Source of the DNA: an uncultured Faecalibacterium sp.
GTDB taxonomy: Bacteria > Bacillota > Clostridia > Oscillospirales > Ruminococcaceae
Length of the DNA stretch: 34,326 nucleotides
NCBI GenBank assembly: GCA_944385995.1
Contig: CALWZL010000019.1
Location: 1-34,326 of the forward strand
Direction of reading: 5' to 3'
Under the pieces are notes generated by a model, which had not been told where the DNA came from, searched no databases, and saw nothing but the letters and a program-made list of their open reading frames with translations. The stretch's first letter is position 1; the number at the start of each line of letters is the position of its first letter. Shown in pieces: positions 2,954-32,894 of this stretch. A program made the translations under genes and the position numbers.

Positions 2954-4078
2954 ATGAAAAAATGGATCGCTGAAACAATCCGGCGGACACTGTCTGCCGC
3001 GGCGGCGGGGTGGATGGCCGTCTGTCTGGTGGTCCCGGCCCAGGCGCTGGGAGAACCCAACATCACGCCCGACACCACCATAGGAGAGATCCGGGCCAAT
3101 GAGAGCATCATCGGGTCTGGATTCAACACCCTGGACCGGACAGCCCTTTGGCCGGAACAGCCCTGGCAGTACACAAGCTGGACACTGGAGGAATATCTGG
3201 GGCCGTCGGCGCCCGATGCGGCCGCCGGCATGAACCTGCTGATTGAAAATTACAACAGCGGGGTCCAGATCACCTACAAGATTTACACCTCCGAGGAAAT
3301 CGCGGCCGACCCCAGCAAGGACCAGGTGGAACTGTATTATTTCCCGGCCCGGCAGCCGGGCGCAAAATACGCCCTGGTTCTCCCGGGAAACATGTTTGAA
3401 AAGAGCGCCAAAATGCGGGAAGGCTGTTCCACCTGCTACCATCTCCATGAGATGGGATACGCCTCTTTCATTCTGCGGTACAGCATCGGCAGAGACAATT
3501 CAGGAAACGCCGCCTATAACGATCTGGTCCGGGCGGTGGAGTTTATCACCCGGCACGCCGATGAATTCGGAGTGCAGCCGGAAGATTACGCCCTGGTGGG
3601 CTATTCGGCCGGCGGACAGCTGTGCGGGATTTTCGGCACCGACCGGATGGGGTACAGCAAGTACGGCTTGCCCAAACCCGGCGCGCTTCTGCTGGGATAC
3701 CCCATCGTGAACTATGTCTATGTAAAGCCGATCTACTTCTATCTTCTGGACGGCGCCAAGCCGGGAGACGATCTGGCACCCGGCGACTACTACTACAACA
3801 TCGAGCTGTCGGCAGAGGTGAGCGCCAATTATCCGCCCACCTATCATTGGTTTGGACGGGATGACATGGTGCTGCTGCGGATGAACATCTTTCAGCAGGG
3901 CCCGGCTTTGGACCGGGCTTTGGAACGGAGCGGCGTCCTGCACAAGATGGTGGTCTACGACCATGCGCCCCACTGCACCAGTACCGGCATCGGCACCGAC
4001 GCCAACGGCTGGCTGTATGATGCGGCGGCCTTCTGGGAAGAGGCTGTGGCAGCAAAACAAGAATCGGAGAGGGGATAG
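2954..4078 (+). CDS. Secreted alpha/beta hydrolase (esterase-like), copy 2
   Basis: A 374-residue paralogue that aligns with the preceding gene along its whole length, including the TPDTTIGEIRANE-type N-terminal region, the YYFPARQPG strand, the LHEMGYA strand and the C-terminal GWLYDAAAFWEEA. It has its own signal peptide ending in PAQA (about residue 31). The nucleophile motif is GYSAG with Ser218; WFGRDDM and YDHAPHC supply the likely Asp and His. Differences in the HAPH loop (HCTSTG here, HGSGNG in copy 1) and in the signal peptide suggest divergence in specificity after a tandem duplication. GGGGAAAGG at 2938-2946 lies 7 bases before the ATG. The next gene starts 6 bases after its stop. 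Confidence 0.85.
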   Translation: MKKWIAETIRRTLSAAAAGWMAVCLVVPAQALGEPNITPDTTIGEIRANESIIGSGFNTLDRTALWPEQPWQYTSWTLEEYLGPSAPDAAAGMNLLIENYNSGVQITYKIYTSEEIAADPSKDQVELYYFPARQPGAKYALVLPGNMFEKSAKMREGCSTCYHLHEMGYASFILRYSIGRDNSGNAAYNDLVRAVEFITRHADEFGVQPEDYALVGYSAGGQLCGIFGTDRMGYSKYGLPKPGALLLGYPIVNYVYVKPIYFYLLDGAKPGDDLAPGDYYYNIELSAEVSANYPPTYHWFGRDDMVLLRMNIFQQGPALDRALERSGVLHKMVVYDHAPHCTSTGIGTDANGWLYDAAAFWEEAVAAKQESERG

Positions 4079-4084
4079 AGACCC

Positions 4085-5539
4085 ATGGTTTTTGACCACA
4101 ATGAAACTTTTCGCAGTTTGAATCTGGGCCTGCCGGACGAAATTGCCCGGCTCAAGACGGCAGGGTACTACACCGAGGCCATTGCGCGGATGGACCGCTG
4201 TCTGGCGGAGGACTGGACCGCGGTCCAGAACGGCCCCAACCGGGCCGCCAATCCCACACCCCAGGGGGTGAAAGCCCAGCGGATGGCCCTGCTGGCCCAG
4301 CGGGAGATGATGCGCCGCCTGCCCGGGGAATACCCCTATACCGAGGCCCAGGCTGTGGCCCGGATGCAGTCCCTGGTCCATGACTTCACCCCGGAGGAAT
4401 TCCGGGCGCTGGACCAGGCCGGACGGGTGGACTGGCGGTTTGTGGAAGGAGAAAAGCACTATCAGAAGCGCTTTGCCGAGACCCTGCTGGATACCGATCC
4501 GGTCTACGGGGCCCGGCGGCTGGTTCCTGCCCCGGACGGCAGCGAAGCCCGCGCCCGCCGGCGGGCAGTCCATCAAAAGATGATGGAAACGGGCAGCGCT
4601 TCGGCCCGCATCACAGTGGAGGCCGGGATTGGCATGACCGACGCGGCCTTTGCCGAGGCCCTGGCCAAAGCAAGGGCGGAGGGCCGGGACACCGTCCATG
4701 TCCGGGCCTGGCTGCCTTTGGCGGCCGCCTGTGCGTCACAGAGCGATATCACCATCGATTGGGTGTCGGAACAGCCGGTTCATATTGCGCTGGAAGATGC
4801 GCCCCAAAGGACCGTTTTCTGGAAGGCAGACCTGTCCCAAAACCGCCGCTTTACCCTGCGGTACAGCTATACCCAGACTGCCCGCTATGTCGACCCGCTG
4901 GACTTTGTGCCTGATCCGGTCCAGCCCGATTTTGACACCGGCGAGGAGGCGCCCCATATCGTCTTTACCCCCTATCTGCGGGCTCTGGCGGCCCAGCTCA
5001 CCGAGGGTGTCACCAGCCCGGCGGAAAAGGCCAGGCGCTTTTACGATTACATCACCCTGAATGTCCACTATCACTACCAGCCGGCCTATTTTGTGCTGGA
5101 GGACATTCCCACCCGCTGCGCCGCCGACCGCCGGGGGGACTGCGGCATCATGGCCCTTACCTTTATTACCCTCTGCCGCATCGCCGGTATTCCGGCCCGG
5201 TGGCAGAGCGGCCTTTCGGTGGGCCCCGGCAAATGCGGCTGCCATGACTGGGCCATGTTCTACATTGCCCCCAAGGGCTGGATGTACGCCGACTGCTCTT
5301 ATGGCGGGTCGATGGCCCGGGCCGGGGAGGAGGAACTGCGCCGGCATTACTTCGGCAATCTGGACCCCGGCCGGATGGTGGCGAATCGCGCCTTTGAGGC
5401 GCCCTTTGATCCGCCCATGACCGGATTCCGGGCCGACCCCTACGACAACCAGAGCGGCGAGATCGAGGCCGACGGGGTTGGAATGTATGGGGACCAGGTT
5501 TCCGCCGTCAAAGAAACCCTCCATTACCAAGAACAATAA
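4085..5539 (+). CDS. Transglutaminase-like cysteine peptidase domain protein
   Basis: A 484-residue protein without an evident signal peptide, hence probably cytosolic. The C-terminal third holds a transglutaminase/protease-like core: Cys353 in RGDCG, His387 in GCHDW and Asp403 in YADCSYGG give the expected Cys-His-Asp order. The IAGIPARWQSG strand is typical of the superfamily (GIPAR). The N-terminal 330 residues hold helices and a region with DPVYGARRLVP that I cannot assign. Such proteins act as peptidases or amide hydrolases; the substrate is unknown. Translation is likely coupled to the esterase upstream (6-base gap, GAGAGGGGAT before the ATG) and to rmuC downstream, whose ribosome binding site overlaps this stop codon. 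Confidence 0.85.
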   Translation: MVFDHNETFRSLNLGLPDEIARLKTAGYYTEAIARMDRCLAEDWTAVQNGPNRAANPTPQGVKAQRMALLAQREMMRRLPGEYPYTEAQAVARMQSLVHDFTPEEFRALDQAGRVDWRFVEGEKHYQKRFAETLLDTDPVYGARRLVPAPDGSEARARRRAVHQKMMETGSASARITVEAGIGMTDAAFAEALAKARAEGRDTVHVRAWLPLAAACASQSDITIDWVSEQPVHIALEDAPQRTVFWKADLSQNRRFTLRYSYTQTARYVDPLDFVPDPVQPDFDTGEEAPHIVFTPYLRALAAQLTEGVTSPAEKARRFYDYITLNVHYHYQPAYFVLEDIPTRCAADRRGDCGIMALTFITLCRIAGIPARWQSGLSVGPGKCGCHDWAMFYIAPKGWMYADCSYGGSMARAGEEELRRHYFGNLDPGRMVANRAFEAPFDPPMTGFRADPYDNQSGEIEADGVGMYGDQVSAVKETLHYQEQ

Positions 5540-27087: not shown

Positions 27088-28587
27088 TTACTGGATGCTC
27101 TCCAGGAAGCGGACAAAGCCGGCCTGGCCTGCCTCGTCCCGCTTGTAGACGCCGGCGTCTTCCAGCACCTCGGCAAAGACGTGGCCGATCTCTTCCTGCA
27201 CAATGCCCTGGACGTTGCCGGCGTTGATGTCGGGGTACTTGGCCAGCAGTTCACCGGCCCACTCGGCGTGTTTCTGGATGGCCTCGCTGTACTGGTCCAG
27301 CGGGGTGCGGTTGACCAGAGCGGTCTCCAGTTCGGCGATTTCGCCCTTCAGACGGCTGGGGAGGACGGCCAGGCCCATGACCTCGATCAGGCCGATGTTC
27401 TCCTTCTTGATGTGGTGAAGCTTGGCATGGGGATGGAAGACGCCCAGGGGATGCTCGGGGGTGGTGATGTTGTTGCGCAGCACCAGATCCAGCTGGAACT
27501 TGCCGTCCCGCATCCGGGCGATGGGGGTAATGGTGTTGTGGGGCTCGCCGTCGGTCTCGGCAAAGATGAAGCAGCTCTCATCCGAATAGCCCCGCCATGC
27601 GGTCAGGATCTTGTCGGCCAGCTCCACCAGACGCTCATCGTCGGTGCAGGTCAGACGGATGCAGCTCATGGGCCAGCGGACAATGCCGGCCTCCGCATCC
27701 TCGTAGCCGGGAAAGGTCCAGGGCTTTTCGATAGGAGCCTTGGCCATGGCGAATTCGTAGTGGCCGCCCTGGAAGTGGTCGTGGCTCAGGATGCTGCCGC
27801 CCACGATGGGAAGATCGGCATTGCTGCCCACAAAGTAGTGGGGGAACTGGGCCACAAAGTCCAGCAGCTTGCGGAAGGTGGCCCGCTCAATCTTCATGGG
27901 GGTGTGGACGCTGTTGAAGACGATGCAGTGCTCGTTGTAGTAGACGTAGGGGCTGTACTGGAGGTTCCAGTCGCTGTCGTTGATGGTGATGGGGATGATC
28001 CGGTGGTTTTCCCGGGCGGGATGGTTCATCCGGCCGGCGTAGCCCTCGTTTTCCTGGCAGAGCTGGCACTTGGGGTAGGCGCTCTGGGGGGCCAGCTTGG
28101 CGGCAGCGATGGCTTTGGGATCTTTTTCGGGCTTGGACAAGTTGATGGTGATGTCCAGGTCGCCGTAGGGGGTCTTGGTGACCCACTTCAGATCCTTCTT
28201 GATCCGGTAGCGGCGGATGTAGTCGGTGTCCTGGCTGAACGCATAGAACCAGTCGGTGGCAGCCTTGGGGCCCTCTTCCTCGTACTTCTCCCAGAAGTTG
28301 GCCCGGACGATGCTGGGCCGCGGGGTCAGAACGCCCATCAGCTTGGTATCAAACAGGTCCCGGGCCACCGAGTTGTCCTCGCAGACGCCCCGGGCCACTG
28401 CGTCGTCCACCAGGGCGGTGAGAATGGATTCCAGATCAATGTAATAGCAGTCGCCCTCGGGCTCCTCAAAGCTGTCCAGCTGCATGGTCATCAGGAGCTG
28501 GTTGCGGATGTAGATTTCGTCGTCAGGCTGAATCAGACCGGTGTCCAGCCCATAATTGACGAGCTGTTGAATTGCATTGTAAATCAC
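27088..28587 (-). CDS. galT: UDP-glucose--hexose-1-phosphate uridylyltransferase, Firmicutes class II
   Basis: A 499-residue GalT of the Firmicutes type, which exchanges UMP between UDP-glucose and galactose-1-phosphate in the Leloir pathway. The first step of the sequence (INAIQQLVNYG-type N-terminus) and the active-site motif SHDHFQGGHYEF with His269 and His271 (HIT-like histidines) match this class rather than the shorter E. coli enzyme. The start is GTG at 28587, supported by AAGGAGG (complement of 28597-28603) 9 bases away. The start overlaps the galK stop as GTGA (28584-28587), which couples translation of the two enzymes. Confidence 0.96.
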   Translation of the reverse strand: MIYNAIQQLVNYGLDTGLIQPDDEIYIRNQLLMTMQLDSFEEPEGDCYYIDLESILTALVDDAVARGVCEDNSVARDLFDTKLMGVLTPRPSIVRANFWEKYEEEGPKAATDWFYAFSQDTDYIRRYRIKKDLKWVTKTPYGDLDITINLSKPEKDPKAIAAAKLAPQSAYPKCQLCQENEGYAGRMNHPARENHRIIPITINDSDWNLQYSPYVYYNEHCIVFNSVHTPMKIERATFRKLLDFVAQFPHYFVGSNADLPIVGGSILSHDHFQGGHYEFAMAKAPIEKPWTFPGYEDAEAGIVRWPMSCIRLTCTDDERLVELADKILTAWRGYSDESCFIFAETDGEPHNTITPIARMRDGKFQLDLVLRNNITTPEHPLGVFHPHAKLHHIKKENIGLIEVMGLAVLPSRLKGEIAELETALVNRTPLDQYSEAIQKHAEWAGELLAKYPDINAGNVQGIVQEEIGHVFAEVLEDAGVYKRDEAGQAGFVRFLESIQ

Positions 28588-29867
28588 AGTACAGCGCCTC
28601 CTTCAGGACGGATGGAAAGAACGTGGCAGCGGCCCTTGCCGATGATGGTTTCGATGCCGGCCTTGAATGCGTCCAGTTTGTGCAGGGGGACAAAGGCCTG
28701 GACGGTGCCTGCAAATCCGCCGCCGTGGACACGGACGGCGCCCTCGCCGGCCAGCAGATGCTTGGCGGCGGCGATGGTGACAGCCACTTCCTGGTGGGTG
28801 GTATAGCCGGCGGGAATCACGTTCTGCAGGTATTCCCAGCTGCTGCGGCCCGACTCATTGACCAGGGACAGGAAGGTCTCAAAGTCCCCGGCCCGGAGTG
28901 CGGCCACCTGACGGGTGACCCGGTCGTTGTCGGCATAGACATGGAAGGCCCGGAGGACGGCGCGGTCGCCGCAGGCGGCGCGGCAGGCCGGAATGTTGGC
29001 CAGGAAGGTCTCGAAGGGAACATCCCGCAGGACTTCACCGCCGCAGACCTTGGCCACACCGCAGCAGTCGGCGGGGATGGCGGCGTACTCATCGGTCAGG
29101 TCGGCATGGTCGGCGCCCGAGTCCAGAATGCACAGGGCCAGGCCGGCCTTGGAGAAGTCCACTTCCACCGGCTCCACCACCGGGCTGGCGGGATCGGCAA
29201 AGTCGATGGTAATGATGTTGCCCACGCTGGAAGCCATCTGATCCATCAGGCCACAGGGCTTGCCGAAGTAGACATTTTCCGCCCACTGGCCGATCTGGGC
29301 GATGGCGATGGGGGAAACCTTCTCGGTCATGAACAGTTCGTTGAGGATGGTGCCAATCAGCACCTCAAAGGCTGCGCTGGAGGAAACGCCGCTGCCCTTG
29401 GGCACGTTGGAGGTGACATACACGTCCAGGCCGGAGAGCTTGGCGCCCCGCTGTGCGAAGGCGGCACACTCGCCCCGCAGGATGGCAGCACTGGTGTTCT
29501 CTTCTTCTTTGCGGGCGGTCAGGTCATCCAGGGCGATGGTGCACAGGGGATAGCCTTCACTCTGGACCCGCAGTTCGCCCTTGTCGTTGGGGCCGGCGGC
29601 TGCAATCATGTCAATGTTGACGCTGCCTGCCAGAACGCGGCCGTGCTGATGATCGGTGTGGTTGCCGCCGATTTCGGTGCGGCCCGGCGCACTGAACAGC
29701 GCCGCGGCACTGTGGGGGCCGAACGTGGCCTCCAAACCGTCCAGAGCTGCCGCATACCGGGCAGCCTGCGGCGCGGTCTCACTGGGCGCACAGCAGTAAA
29801 GGGAGGCCAGCCGGGCGGCGTGGACACCGTCCGCCAGCTCCTGCTTCCAAATACGGACATCCTTCAT
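28584..29867 (-). CDS. galK: Galactokinase
   Basis: A 427-residue GHMP-family kinase that forms galactose-1-phosphate from galactose and ATP. The galactokinase signature APGRTEIGGNHTDHQ is at residues 60-74. The ATP loop PKGSGVSSSAA is at 156-166, the GLMDQMAS segment follows and HGGGFAGTVQAFV is near the C-terminus. The start at 29867 is set by AAGGAGG (complement of 29876-29882) 8 bases upstream; an open frame to 30092 extends into the promoter region and is rejected. It is the first gene of the galK-galT-cutC unit; no mutarotase or epimerase is nearby. Confidence 0.96.
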   Translation of the reverse strand: MKDVRIWKQELADGVHAARLASLYCCAPSETAPQAARYAAALDGLEATFGPHSAAALFSAPGRTEIGGNHTDHQHGRVLAGSVNIDMIAAAGPNDKGELRVQSEGYPLCTIALDDLTARKEEENTSAAILRGECAAFAQRGAKLSGLDVYVTSNVPKGSGVSSSAAFEVLIGTILNELFMTEKVSPIAIAQIGQWAENVYFGKPCGLMDQMASSVGNIITIDFADPASPVVEPVEVDFSKAGLALCILDSGADHADLTDEYAAIPADCCGVAKVCGGEVLRDVPFETFLANIPACRAACGDRAVLRAFHVYADNDRVTRQVAALRAGDFETFLSLVNESGRSSWEYLQNVIPAGYTTHQEVAVTIAAAKHLLAGEGAVRVHGGGFAGTVQAFVPLHKLDAFKAGIETIIGKGRCHVLSIRPEGGAVL

Positions 29868-30171: not shown

Positions 30172-30209
30172 AAAAAAATCCGCCGCAGTGCACAAGGCAC
30201 CGCAGCGGA
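30172..30209 (-). terminator. Strong terminator of the small-peptide operon
   Basis: A 13-bp stem with two G-T pairs (30179-30191 with 30197-30209) and a 5-base loop. On the minus strand it is followed by seven T (complement of 30172-30178). It is 75 bases after the stop of the 86-residue protein. Confidence 0.93.
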
Positions 30210-30283
30210 GGAAAAGGAGGGAGAGCGGGAACGGCGGACCAGGCCGCGTTCCGACCCTTCCCGATGGCTGGGACGCGCAGCGG

Positions 30284-30544
30284 TTACAGCTGCTGGAACA
30301 GGTCAAAGATACCCGTGACCAGTTCCTGACCCAGAGAGATGACGGAGCGCACCGCCGTGAACAGCAGAGCAGGGACAAAGGTAAAGGAGATGGCGAGGAC
30401 CGAAGAACCGCGGTAGAAATCGGTCAAATGCAGGCTGTCAAGGAAGTCGACAAGTGCATCACTGACCGGGCCGCCGCCTTGGATCATACGCTGCTCGGAT
30501 CTGCTGATCTCTGCATAATGCGCAGGCATACGAAGGTTCTGCAT
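30284..30544 (-). CDS. Small protein with double-glycine leader, 86 residues
   Basis: Not matched to a named family. The N-terminus MQNLRMPAHYA-x11-GG ends at residue 24 and fits a double-glycine secretion leader: Ile at -4, Glu at -8 and Ile at -12 relative to the cleavage site. The predicted mature part of 62 residues has no cysteine and has a hydrophobic segment (about SSVLAISFTFVPALLFTAV) flanked by two amphipathic stretches ending in ITGIFDLFQQL-like helix. It shares the leader module with the 145-residue gene upstream (61-base gap, same strand). AAGGAGG (complement of 30551-30557) is 6 bases from the ATG. A bacteriocin, pheromone or membrane-acting peptide is the inference; no C39 transporter or immunity gene is in the window. 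Confidence 0.78.
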   Translation of the reverse strand: MQNLRMPAHYAEISRSEQRMIQGGGPVSDALVDFLDSLHLTDFYRGSSVLAISFTFVPALLFTAVRSVISLGQELVTGIFDLFQQL

Positions 30545-30605
30545 GATAAGCCTCCTTTCTTTAGAATGGGTGACAGGCAGAGCCTGCCGGGATCAGGTGC
30601 CGTCA

Positions 30606-31043
30606 TCAGGCAGCCGCGGGAACCTGTTCAGCTTCAGCGGGTGCATAGAAGGCATCCTGGAACGCCTTGACAAGGGGATCAATCAGAGAATTGTAGTAGT
30701 AGGCCGCCATGGTCAGGCCGTACAGGCCGCCCAACACGCTGGCAATGGCCAGGAAGCCCCACTGCGAACGGTTCAGGGAAGAGAAAAAGTCCTTCATGAT
30801 CTTGCCGCCGGAGGTGGCTGTGGTGCCGAGGAAGGCATTGCCCACCATGGAGACGCCAGCCGTAAAGAAGGTTCCGCCGATGAACATCAGACCGTTGACC
30901 AGAACATTGATGCCGAATTGGATGACCTGCTCCTGGGTGATATTGAAGAGCGCGCCGCCTTCCAGATAGACCATCTCTTCCTGGGGGACAAGCGCATAAT
31001 GCGCAGGCATGGCAATCATGCCCGATGATGTTGTATATTCCAT
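30606..31043 (-). CDS. Small protein with double-glycine leader, 145 residues
   Basis: Not matched to a named family. Residues 12-17 are MPAHYA, followed by 11 residues and GG at 29-30; Leu at -4, Met at -7, Glu at -8 and Val at -12 match the double-glycine leader pattern exactly. The predicted mature part (about 115 residues) has no cysteine and contains hydrophobic, Gly-rich segments (INVLVNGLMFIGGTFFTAG and FLAIASVLGGLYGLTMAAYY) joined by a lysine-containing loop, with an acidic Ala/Pro tail. AAAGGAG (complement of 31052-31058) is 8 bases from the ATG. It is the first gene after a strong promoter. An open frame extending to 31385 crosses that promoter and is rejected. Confidence 0.8.
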   Translation of the reverse strand: MEYTTSSGMIAMPAHYALVPQEEMVYLEGGALFNITQEQVIQFGINVLVNGLMFIGGTFFTAGVSMVGNAFLGTTATSGGKIMKDFFSSLNRSQWGFLAIASVLGGLYGLTMAAYYYNSLIDPLVKAFQDAFYAPAEAEQVPAAA

Positions 31044-31101
31044 AAGTAGGGCTCCTTTCAAGCTTGGCCCCGCAGAGGTGCGCGGGAACTGAGTTACCTG
31101 A

Positions 31102-31130
31102 ATTATAGCATATTCAGAAAAAAACAACAA
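31102..31130 (-). promoter_or_regulatory. Strong promoter of the small-peptide operon
   Basis: On the minus strand TTGTTG (complement of 31125-31130), a 17-base spacer and a perfect TATAAT (complement of 31102-31107) preceded by TGC (extended -10). The leader is about 50 bases. Confidence 0.88.
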
Positions 31131-31418
31131 GGCATCGCATAGCTTGGTTTGGACGGGCTTTGTGAGGTTGTTGTGAAAAATACAAGACAAAAATGACGTA
31201 TCTGTGTAAAACGAAAGAAAGGTCTGCCGGCGGTCCGGCGTAAAAAAATGTTCCAGTGCAATCTTTTCACAGATTCGGCAAAAGCCAGCGGCGGCGCGGC
31301 TTTTGGATTTGGAAGGGCGGAGCGCTTCACAGGCAGAAGCCGCCGCACCGGCCCAAGGGACGGCACAGCGGCTTCCACTGCGCAAAGTAAGGAGAAAGAA
31401 AAGGAAGAAATCAGGGGA
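31131..31418. other. Non-coding gap between the peptide promoter and malQ
   Basis: About 290 bases with no credible gene on either strand. The only structure noted is a stem with a bulged A (31280-31290 with 31295-31304) ending in four T on both strands, which may weakly terminate malQ. Confidence 0.5.
31280..31304 (-). terminator. Weak terminator candidate after malQ
   Basis: AAAAGCC and GGCTTTT arms with an inner GCG/CGC stem and one bulged base, 115 bases beyond the malQ stop. The T tail is only four long. Confidence 0.4.
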
Positions 31419-32894
31419 TCAGTTTTGGGCCGGGGCCCGGTCGTAGAGACAGGTGAGCCCGGCGATGGTTTGGGCCAGCGTCTCGGTCAGGGCGCCGGCG
31501 TCCAGCCGCCATTGCCAGTTGCCGCCCTGGGTGCTGGGGGTGTTGATGCGGGCTTCGGGGCCCAGGTGGAGCCAGTCGGCCATCGGAATGACGGACAGGG
31601 CCGAAACGCTGGACAGACAGGCGCAGATCATGGCGTCGGTCAGGCCGTCGGGGGTGCAGCGCAGGTAGCGGCAGGCGTAGTCGATATCGGCGGGGCTGGC
31701 GGTCTGCTGCCAGCCCTGGGTGGTGATGTTGTCGTGGGTGCCGGTGTAGACCACGCTGTTGGCGGTGTAGGTGTAGGGCAGATAGTTGCCCGGCTCCCGG
31801 CTGTCAAAGGCAAACTGCATGATCTTCATGCCGGGGCATCCGCTGGCGGCCAGCAGGGCTTTCACTTCATCGGTCAGATAGCCCAGGTCCTCGGCGATGA
31901 CGGCATCCCGGCCCACCGCCTGGTGCATGGCGTCGATGAAGGCCAGCCCGGGGCCCTTGACCCATTCGCCGCCGTGGGCGGTGGTGTTGCCGGCCGGAAT
32001 CGAAAAGTAACTCTCAAACCCGCGGAAGTGATCGATCCGCACCAGGTCGTAGATGGAGGTGGCGTGGCGCATCCGCTGTTTCCACCAGGCAAAATCCTCG
32101 GCGGCGTGACGGGGCCAGTCATAGAGGGGATTGCCCCACAGCTGGCCATTGGCCGCAAAGGAATCGGGCGGGCACCCGGCCACCCGGGTCAGATGAACCT
32201 GACCGTCGGTCTGGAACAATTCCGGCCGGGTCCACAAATCACTGGAATCGGGGCTGACATAGATGGGGATGTCTCCGATCAAACGAATGCCTTTGCCGTT
32301 GGCGTAGGCCTTGAGGGCGGTCCACTGGTGGTAGAAGAAGAATTGCACGGCCCGGTAGTAGTCGCAGCGGCTGGACAGCCGTTCCCGGGCCGCGGCGATG
32401 GTGTCGGGATGACGGCACCGCAGGGCGTCGGGCCAGTCAGCCAGACCGGCCTGACCCTGTTCCTCCTTGATGGCCATGAACAAGGCATAATCTTCCAGCC
32501 AGGAAGCCTGTTCGGTGCAGAAGCGCTGGTATTCAGGGGTTGGACTGGACAGAAGCCGCTCGGCTGCCCGGGCCAGAAGCGGCGGGCGGTCGGTGTACAG
32601 GGTTCCGTACTGGATGGGTTCCACCGGCTGGGGGGGAGGAAGCTCGGCTTTGTCCAGGAAGCCCTGCTGTACCAGCAAATCAAAATCGATGAAGTAGGGA
32701 TTTCCCGCAAAGGCGGAAAAACTTTGATAGGGACTGTCCCCATAGCCGGTGGGGCCGATGGGGAGAATCTGCCAGAAAGTCTGTTTGGCCCCGGCCAGAA
32801 AATCCACAAAACGGTAGGCCTCGCGGCCCAGCGTGCCGATGCCATAGGGGCCCGGCAGGCTGAACACTGGCAGCAGGATGCCGCTTGCACGCAT
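31419..32894 (-). CDS. malQ: 4-alpha-glucanotransferase (amylomaltase)
   Basis: A 491-residue GH77 enzyme that transfers maltosyl and longer glucan units, releasing glucose. The N-terminus RASGILLPVFSLPGPYGIG and the IGPTGYGDSPYQSFSAFAGNPYFID stretch (two adjacent motifs) are typical. Catalytic residues are in place: nucleophile Asp288 in RIDHFRG, acid/base Glu335 in AEDLGY and Asp388 in THDN. The length matches the bacterial family. The start at 32894 is fixed by AAGGAGG (complement of 32902-32908), which overlaps the end of the permease gene. It is the last gene of an operon with two sugar ABC permeases, so it probably processes imported malto-oligosaccharides in the cytosol. Confidence 0.96.
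   Translation of the reverse strand: MRASGILLPVFSLPGPYGIGTLGREAYRFVDFLAGAKQTFWQILPIGPTGYGDSPYQSFSAFAGNPYFIDFDLLVQQGFLDKAELPPPQPVEPIQYGTLYTDRPPLLARAAERLLSSPTPEYQRFCTEQASWLEDYALFMAIKEEQGQAGLADWPDALRCRHPDTIAAARERLSSRCDYYRAVQFFFYHQWTALKAYANGKGIRLIGDIPIYVSPDSSDLWTRPELFQTDGQVHLTRVAGCPPDSFAANGQLWGNPLYDWPRHAAEDFAWWKQRMRHATSIYDLVRIDHFRGFESYFSIPAGNTTAHGGEWVKGPGLAFIDAMHQAVGRDAVIAEDLGYLTDEVKALLAASGCPGMKIMQFAFDSREPGNYLPYTYTANSVVYTGTHDNITTQGWQQTASPADIDYACRYLRCTPDGLTDAMICACLSSVSALSVIPMADWLHLGPEARINTPSTQGGNWQWRLDAGALTETLAQTIAGLTCLYDRAPAQN

Follow-up and report, generated by a model that had tools for sequence, protein, structure and literature searches.

A conserved two-gene operon of Faecalibacterium for putative MAM-type double-glycine precursors

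The minus strand of the DNA analysed here (the window, a stretch of 34,326 nucleotides that is contig 19 of a 2.25-Mb, 87.7% complete draft genome of an uncultured Faecalibacterium sp.) carries a real and widely conserved operon of two precursors of the kind associated with C39 peptidase transporters (PCATs) and typified by MAM, the known anti-inflammatory surface protein of Faecalibacterium (described in the available portions of PMC8836110 and PMC12184118). The operon is undescribed in the literature found: a search whose coverage was short on subscription journals, preprints and supplements returned no description of the pair, the relevant papers being the two MAM papers just cited, while PMC4573289 names Faecalibacterium once only, in its reference list. 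We propose, with a probability of roughly 0.6, that the pair are two further MAM-type envelope proteins exported through the PCAT. What we infer is that the single PCAT of the genome, encoded beside MAM, would bind the MPxxYA..E..GG leader, cut after the GG and export both cargoes, and that these would remain in the cell envelope, as MAM does, and assemble with the MAM surface coat as its probable partners or accessories.

Gene 1 (30606-31043, minus strand, stop included), an open reading frame with a Shine-Dalgarno sequence, encodes a precursor of 145 residues, in which residues 1-30 (30954-31043, minus strand) are an N-terminal extension and a leader with GG at its end, and the other 115 (30609-30953, minus strand) are a cargo of 12.2 kDa. 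Gene 2 (30284-30544, minus strand, stop included) follows after 61 bp with its own Shine-Dalgarno sequence and encodes 86 residues: a leader that also ends in GG (residues 1-24; 30473-30544, minus strand) and a 62-residue cargo (30287-30472, minus strand) with a strongly hydrophobic core, where S53, F56, P58, L60 and F62 are invariant in the alignment of 26 species. As a preliminary description of this DNA had observed, both proteins contain MPAHYA, then exactly 11 residues, then GG, a DNA pattern that has two matches in the window and none in any of 100 shuffles; in the genome as a whole, a looser leader pattern has three matches, namely gene 1, gene 2 and one MAM gene. The hydrophobic residues reported at -4 and -12 (L/I and V/I) and the Glu at -8 are likewise present in the two leaders, and the two cargoes are indeed unrelated to each other (hhalign score 14.7, at noise level). 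The lack of cysteine that had been pointed out is true of the window pair but is not a family trait, since Cys is found in 13 of the 26 gene 1 cargoes and in one of the 26 gene 2 cargoes.

MPAHYA varies among the orthologues: only nine of the 26 gene 1 proteins and ten of the 26 gene 2 proteins have its H. GG at -2/-1, P at -18 and an aliphatic residue at -12 are found in all 26 orthologues of either gene, and E at -8 is found in all 26 of gene 2 and in 25 of gene 1, the remaining one having D. The residue at -4 is L (17), T (5) or I (4) in gene 1 and I (16), A (4), L (3), V (2) or T (1) in gene 2. The two leaders differ at -7, where a hydrophobic residue is usual: M in the gene 1 protein of the window and hydrophobic M in all 26 orthologues, Q in the gene 2 protein, whose orthologues have Q (18), L (5), K (2) or M (1), so that the residue is non-hydrophobic in 20 of 26, the window's included.

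A gene 2 orthologue was found in 26 of the 31 Faecalibacterium species and in none of the 389 genomes from other genera among the 396 genomes of the family searched. Directly upstream, on the same strand, all 26 species have a gene 1 orthologue (25 located by script and one, L048, by hand), with a gap of 24-111 bp in the 25 species measured. The neighbours are also largely kept. In the window, malQ for a 4-alpha-glucanotransferase (31419-32894, minus strand; Pfam PF02446) lies upstream and a galactokinase gene (28584-29867, minus strand; PF10509 and PF00288) downstream. malQ adjoins the operon at 20 of 26 loci and a galK-like gene at 22, of which 13 have the opposite orientation and no more than 42-45% identity; one or both stand beside the operon in 24 of 26, and two loci have neither in the stretch examined. 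Both genes are real and under purifying selection, with median dN/dS values among ten close species of 0.24 for gene 1 and 0.16 for gene 2, which are rough because the dS medians are 0.8-0.9. In gene 1, constraint is much stronger on the leader than on the cargo (0.06 up to the GG versus 0.30), whereas in gene 2 it is not (0.19 versus 0.16). Separate conservation of the leader, as envisaged in the preliminary description, is therefore seen in gene 1 and across the cargo groups presented below, but not within gene 2. Because F. prausnitzii ATCC 27768, a named strain, has the pair, the proposal is easy to test.

Genes 1 and 2 are probably co-transcribed. The promoter that had been proposed, TTGTTG-17-TATAAT, was found at 31102-31130 (minus strand) with an extended -10 (TGC), and its TTGTTG and TGCTATAAT are invariant across the 10 close relatives aligned; its -35 element is poor, with only three of six consensus matches, and a sigma-70 scan of the region called no promoter. 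In the 180 nt upstream, gene 1 has a TGnTAnnnT in all 26 species and gene 2 in one of the 26, the pattern that a single transcript would give. The 13-pair terminator-like hairpin after gene 2 is also where it had been placed (30179-30209, minus strand), but it is not significant by itself because shuffles of the region average 2.2 terminators. Upstream of the promoter, TTTCACA-N6-TCACAA (31160-31178, minus strand), with half-sites invariant in the 10 relatives, is a possible regulator site. By eye, TTTCACA and TCACAA, wider apart, also precede a second precursor pair of this genome, on contig 14, and a regulator shared by the two loci is possible. A hairpin or RNA element in the 5' UTR was rejected: the folding z-score is 0.26, and Rfam returned nothing at its gathering thresholds.

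The genome encodes a single PCAT, two profile matches falling in one frame, so that the C39 transporter predicted in the preliminary description, whose absence was to count against it, does exist. The frame is open and encodes 776 residues with C39, ABC membrane and ATPase domains; it matches TIGR01193, the peptide cleavage/export kind, and its closest solved structures are PCAT1 entries (4ry2 and others). Q8, C14 and H92, which the available portions of PMC12184118 assign to the active site, are present in it together with GIETIK, as published there for the F. duncaniae PCAT, while the position of the published Asp136 is V, with a D three residues on that is unaligned. The PCAT gene is on a different contig from the window operon and is followed on the same strand by MAM, a MAM-type paralogue, a HlyD-like gene and an Ig-domain gene, a layout that agrees with the MAM loci described in the excerpts of PMC8836110. 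The leaders of MAM and its paralogue are of the same type as those of the window pair. In a congener (G021), a protein contains the N-terminal peptide of F. duncaniae MAM as published (PMC12184118, available part), the match starting at the fourth residue of the peptide. According to the same part of PMC12184118, MAM exceeds every other envelope protein of F. duncaniae in abundance, has a mass of 12.1 kDa when processed and may form a hexameric lattice, an S-layer or surface lattice being discussed as possible; according to that of PMC8836110, it inhibits NF-kB signalling in published assays.

MAM and the window pair have further company. A leader profile of 20 positions built from 25 leaders, those of the window pair included and thus found by construction, detected four to nine precursors in 27 of the 31 species and none in the other four at a cut-off of E ≤ 1, where the weakest matches may be due to chance. 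In the own genome, eight of nine profile matches read as real precursors, six of them at E ≤ 1e-4. Besides the window pair, contig 2 carries two MAM-type precursors and contig 14 another two, while contigs 3 and 7 have one each, with weaker matches (E 1e-4 and 9e-4). Cargoes of 135 distinct precursors, taken from a subset of loci rather than from all precursors of all genomes (frames with a leader match of i-E < 0.01 that extends to model position 18, a length of ≤260 and a cargo of ≥25 residues), were joined by single linkage at phmmer E < 1e-4 into clusters of 49, 26 (gene 1), 26 (gene 2), 18 (MAM), 11, 3, 1 and 1. The relatives with variable cargo that had been anticipated are thus represented by six groups of at least three members without phmmer links between them, although unlinked groups are not necessarily unrelated, gene 1 and MAM being two such groups. 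The leader is common to different cargo groups. These results suggest that MAM is a member of a larger, little-described family that shares the leader.

The pair on contig 14 (L072:3577-3969 and 4078-4434; MENKIRYPEHFAPVAQDEMVYLTGG.. and ..MPANYNLMTEDEMTYTTGG..), a second unlinked precursor pair, adjoins what by eye is an apparent dnaJ gene, and its second precursor falls in the largest cargo group, that of 49 sequences. Contig 7 encodes a lone precursor (L133:1477-1839; ..MPYSYTAIADKEMEYVDGG..), whose cargo is rich in Asn, Ser and Thr and joined no cluster. Outside Faecalibacterium, three genera of the family have the leader type (e.g., MPANYAAVSEEEMTYIDGG), with five genomes (L205, L206, L207, L208 and L209) among the 389 searched, and in three of the five the precursors stand side by side, in twos or threes. 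The cargoes of these other-genus proteins match no Faecalibacterium cargo group well; against MAM the best E in a set of nine was 0.0054, on which we claim no relation.

The pair and the transporter tend to be present or absent together. A full PCAT-type C39 match is found in 26 of the 31 species, a count that leaves out G027; the Pfam C39 tally itself is 27 of 31, as G027 scores above the Pfam cut-off. The G027 match is a stand-alone protein of 293 residues (L082:10131-11012) with a C39-like domain (E 7.5e-8) and without transporter domains. PCAT and gene 2 are both present in 25 of the 31 species and both absent in four (G009, G018, G019 and G027), which are also without the leader family (Fisher p 8e-4, uncorrected for kinship). 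A C39 transporter is thus present in 25 of the 26 species with gene 2, the exception being G002 (77% complete), with gene 2 and leaders and no C39 match; conversely, G011 (79% complete) has PCAT and leaders and no gene 2 match. In a recA tree, which took in 28 of the 31 species including three of the four that lack the family, these three are on one side of one branch (support 92/74). Consequently, the co-occurrence may reflect a single gain or loss event, and the tree weakens an account in terms of many independent events.

The gene 1 cargo may itself be related to MAM. When leader-free profiles were compared with hhalign, gene 1 versus MAM scored 29.7 (E 1.9e-4, probability 47) and led all 28 family pairs, the runner-up reaching 20.6, whereas ten column-shuffled MAM controls scored at most 15.9 against gene 1. 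The alignment covers 64 columns with 16% identity. The AlphaFold models of the two window proteins are of low confidence (mean pLDDT 49.6 and 58.4); the weak gene 1 model has helices at 37-71, 79-92 and 94-132, a predicted layout that much recalls the published helices of MAM at 37-70, 74-86 and 100-119 (PMC12184118, available part). The profile match is suggestive, not proof, of the gene 1 cargo being a remote MAM relative. Gene 2 against MAM gave noise in the same leader-free comparison, and its cargo showed hhalign likeness to none of the other cargo families compared; it has no match in Pfam, NCBIfam, PADLOC, PHROGs or the PDB sequences at the thresholds used. The signature MMMPANx(8,11)VxGG is found in 15 of 18 members of the MAM cluster and in no gene 1 or gene 2 protein (26 of each), and for this reason a signature search as given in the available portions of PMC12184118 would miss proteins of the window type. 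A PSI-BLAST search from MAM by Auger et al. yielded 108 sequences, as stated in the available text, and gene 1 proteins may be among them.

Several observations weigh against this reading of the window pair. There is no linkage between the operon and the PCAT gene, and the leader of gene 2 is no more conserved than its cargo, which is like none of the families compared. To these are added the low identity of the gene 1-MAM match, the low confidence of the models, the possibly single event behind the co-occurrence, and G002 and G011, in each of which only one of gene 2 and the PCAT was matched. Gene 2 is nevertheless probably still a substrate, because GG and E at -8 are kept in all 26 orthologues. 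In a wider form of the proposal, one PCAT and several kinds of small hydrophobic cargo with one swappable leader would constitute a modular surface display in Faecalibacterium and scattered relatives, MAM being only one cargo and the window pair a fixed partner module of the MAM coat in nearly every PCAT species; we put this forward tentatively, as an idea that has the odds somewhat against it.

Among the alternatives, the cargoes could be secreted signals, that is, pheromones or host-directed effectors rather than structural parts of the envelope. The MAM type of the leader, the possible remote relationship of a cargo to MAM and the activity published for MAM (PMC8836110, available part) are compatible with such a role. 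The two flanking genes identified, malQ and galK, however, encode sugar enzymes and not sensors or regulators. As a matter of general knowledge, cargoes of 115 and 62 residues are also large for pheromones, and we regard a signalling role as unlikely.

The pair could also be a two-peptide bacteriocin whose cargoes are both exported and jointly permeabilise competitors. The preliminary description had favoured a two-component bacteriocin or signal peptide, and the adjacency of two double-glycine precursors, the hydrophobic cargoes and a PCAT of the peptide cleavage/export kind are in keeping with the bacteriocin. An immunity gene was not seen in the operon, however: the stretch from malQ to galK showed no recognisable genes other than the two precursors, with the qualification that immunity proteins can be unrelated to known ones. 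Moreover, the gene 1 cargo is long, GxxxG occurs once in gene 1 and not at all in gene 2, and the operon is not patchy in distribution, having its chromosomal place kept in 24 of 26 species and purifying selection on both cargoes. For the missing immunity gene, the cargo sizes and the conserved place, a bacteriocin pair was rejected as the best reading, and we hold it to be distinctly improbable.

It is very unlikely that gene 2 encodes a membrane partner or chaperone of gene 1 with a degenerate leader instead of an exported cargo. Q at -7 in 18 of 26 orthologues, a leader no more conserved than the rest and the hydrophobic core of the protein would fit this role, but the presence of GG, E at -8 and an aliphatic residue at -12 in all 26 orthologues would be difficult to account for if no peptidase recognised the leader. 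A phage or defence origin was rejected, as there was no PADLOC match and the PHROGs search gave only two gene 1 matches, with E values of 0.19 and 0.35.

If MAM is one of several cargo groups that share a leader, the envelope architecture of Faecalibacterium and the differences among its strains will have to be re-read family-wide, and so will the candidate anti-inflammatory factors, with the PCAT as a single handle on all of them.

Class IIb bacteriocins consist of two adjacent double-glycine precursors with short mature peptides, GxxxG motifs in both, an immunity gene and a dedicated transporter. The window pair has the two adjacent double-glycine precursors in common with them, but its cargoes are of 115 and 62 residues, its gene 2 has no GxxxG and neither an immunity gene nor a dedicated transporter was recognised in its operon. 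With PCAT/AMS systems such as PCAT1, LahT and ComA it shares a C39 exporter and leaders with GG, E at -8 and hydrophobic residues at -4 and -12; it differs from them in the polar -7 of gene 2, and the Faecalibacterium precursors are encoded at several loci away from the exporter. The gene 1 cargo is also large for a PCAT peptide substrate. The closest described relative, by leader, by transporter and perhaps by the gene 1 cargo, is the envelope protein MAM. Unlike MAM, the window proteins are encoded by two adjacent genes in an unlinked operon between malQ and galK, their leaders lack MMMPANx(8,11)VxGG, and the gene 2 cargo is shorter than MAM and unlike it. Common to both are the genus, the leader layout MPAxYxVxxxxEMxYxxGG, presumably the PCAT and, for gene 1, a small hydrophobic cargo of ~12 kDa with possible remote similarity to that of MAM.
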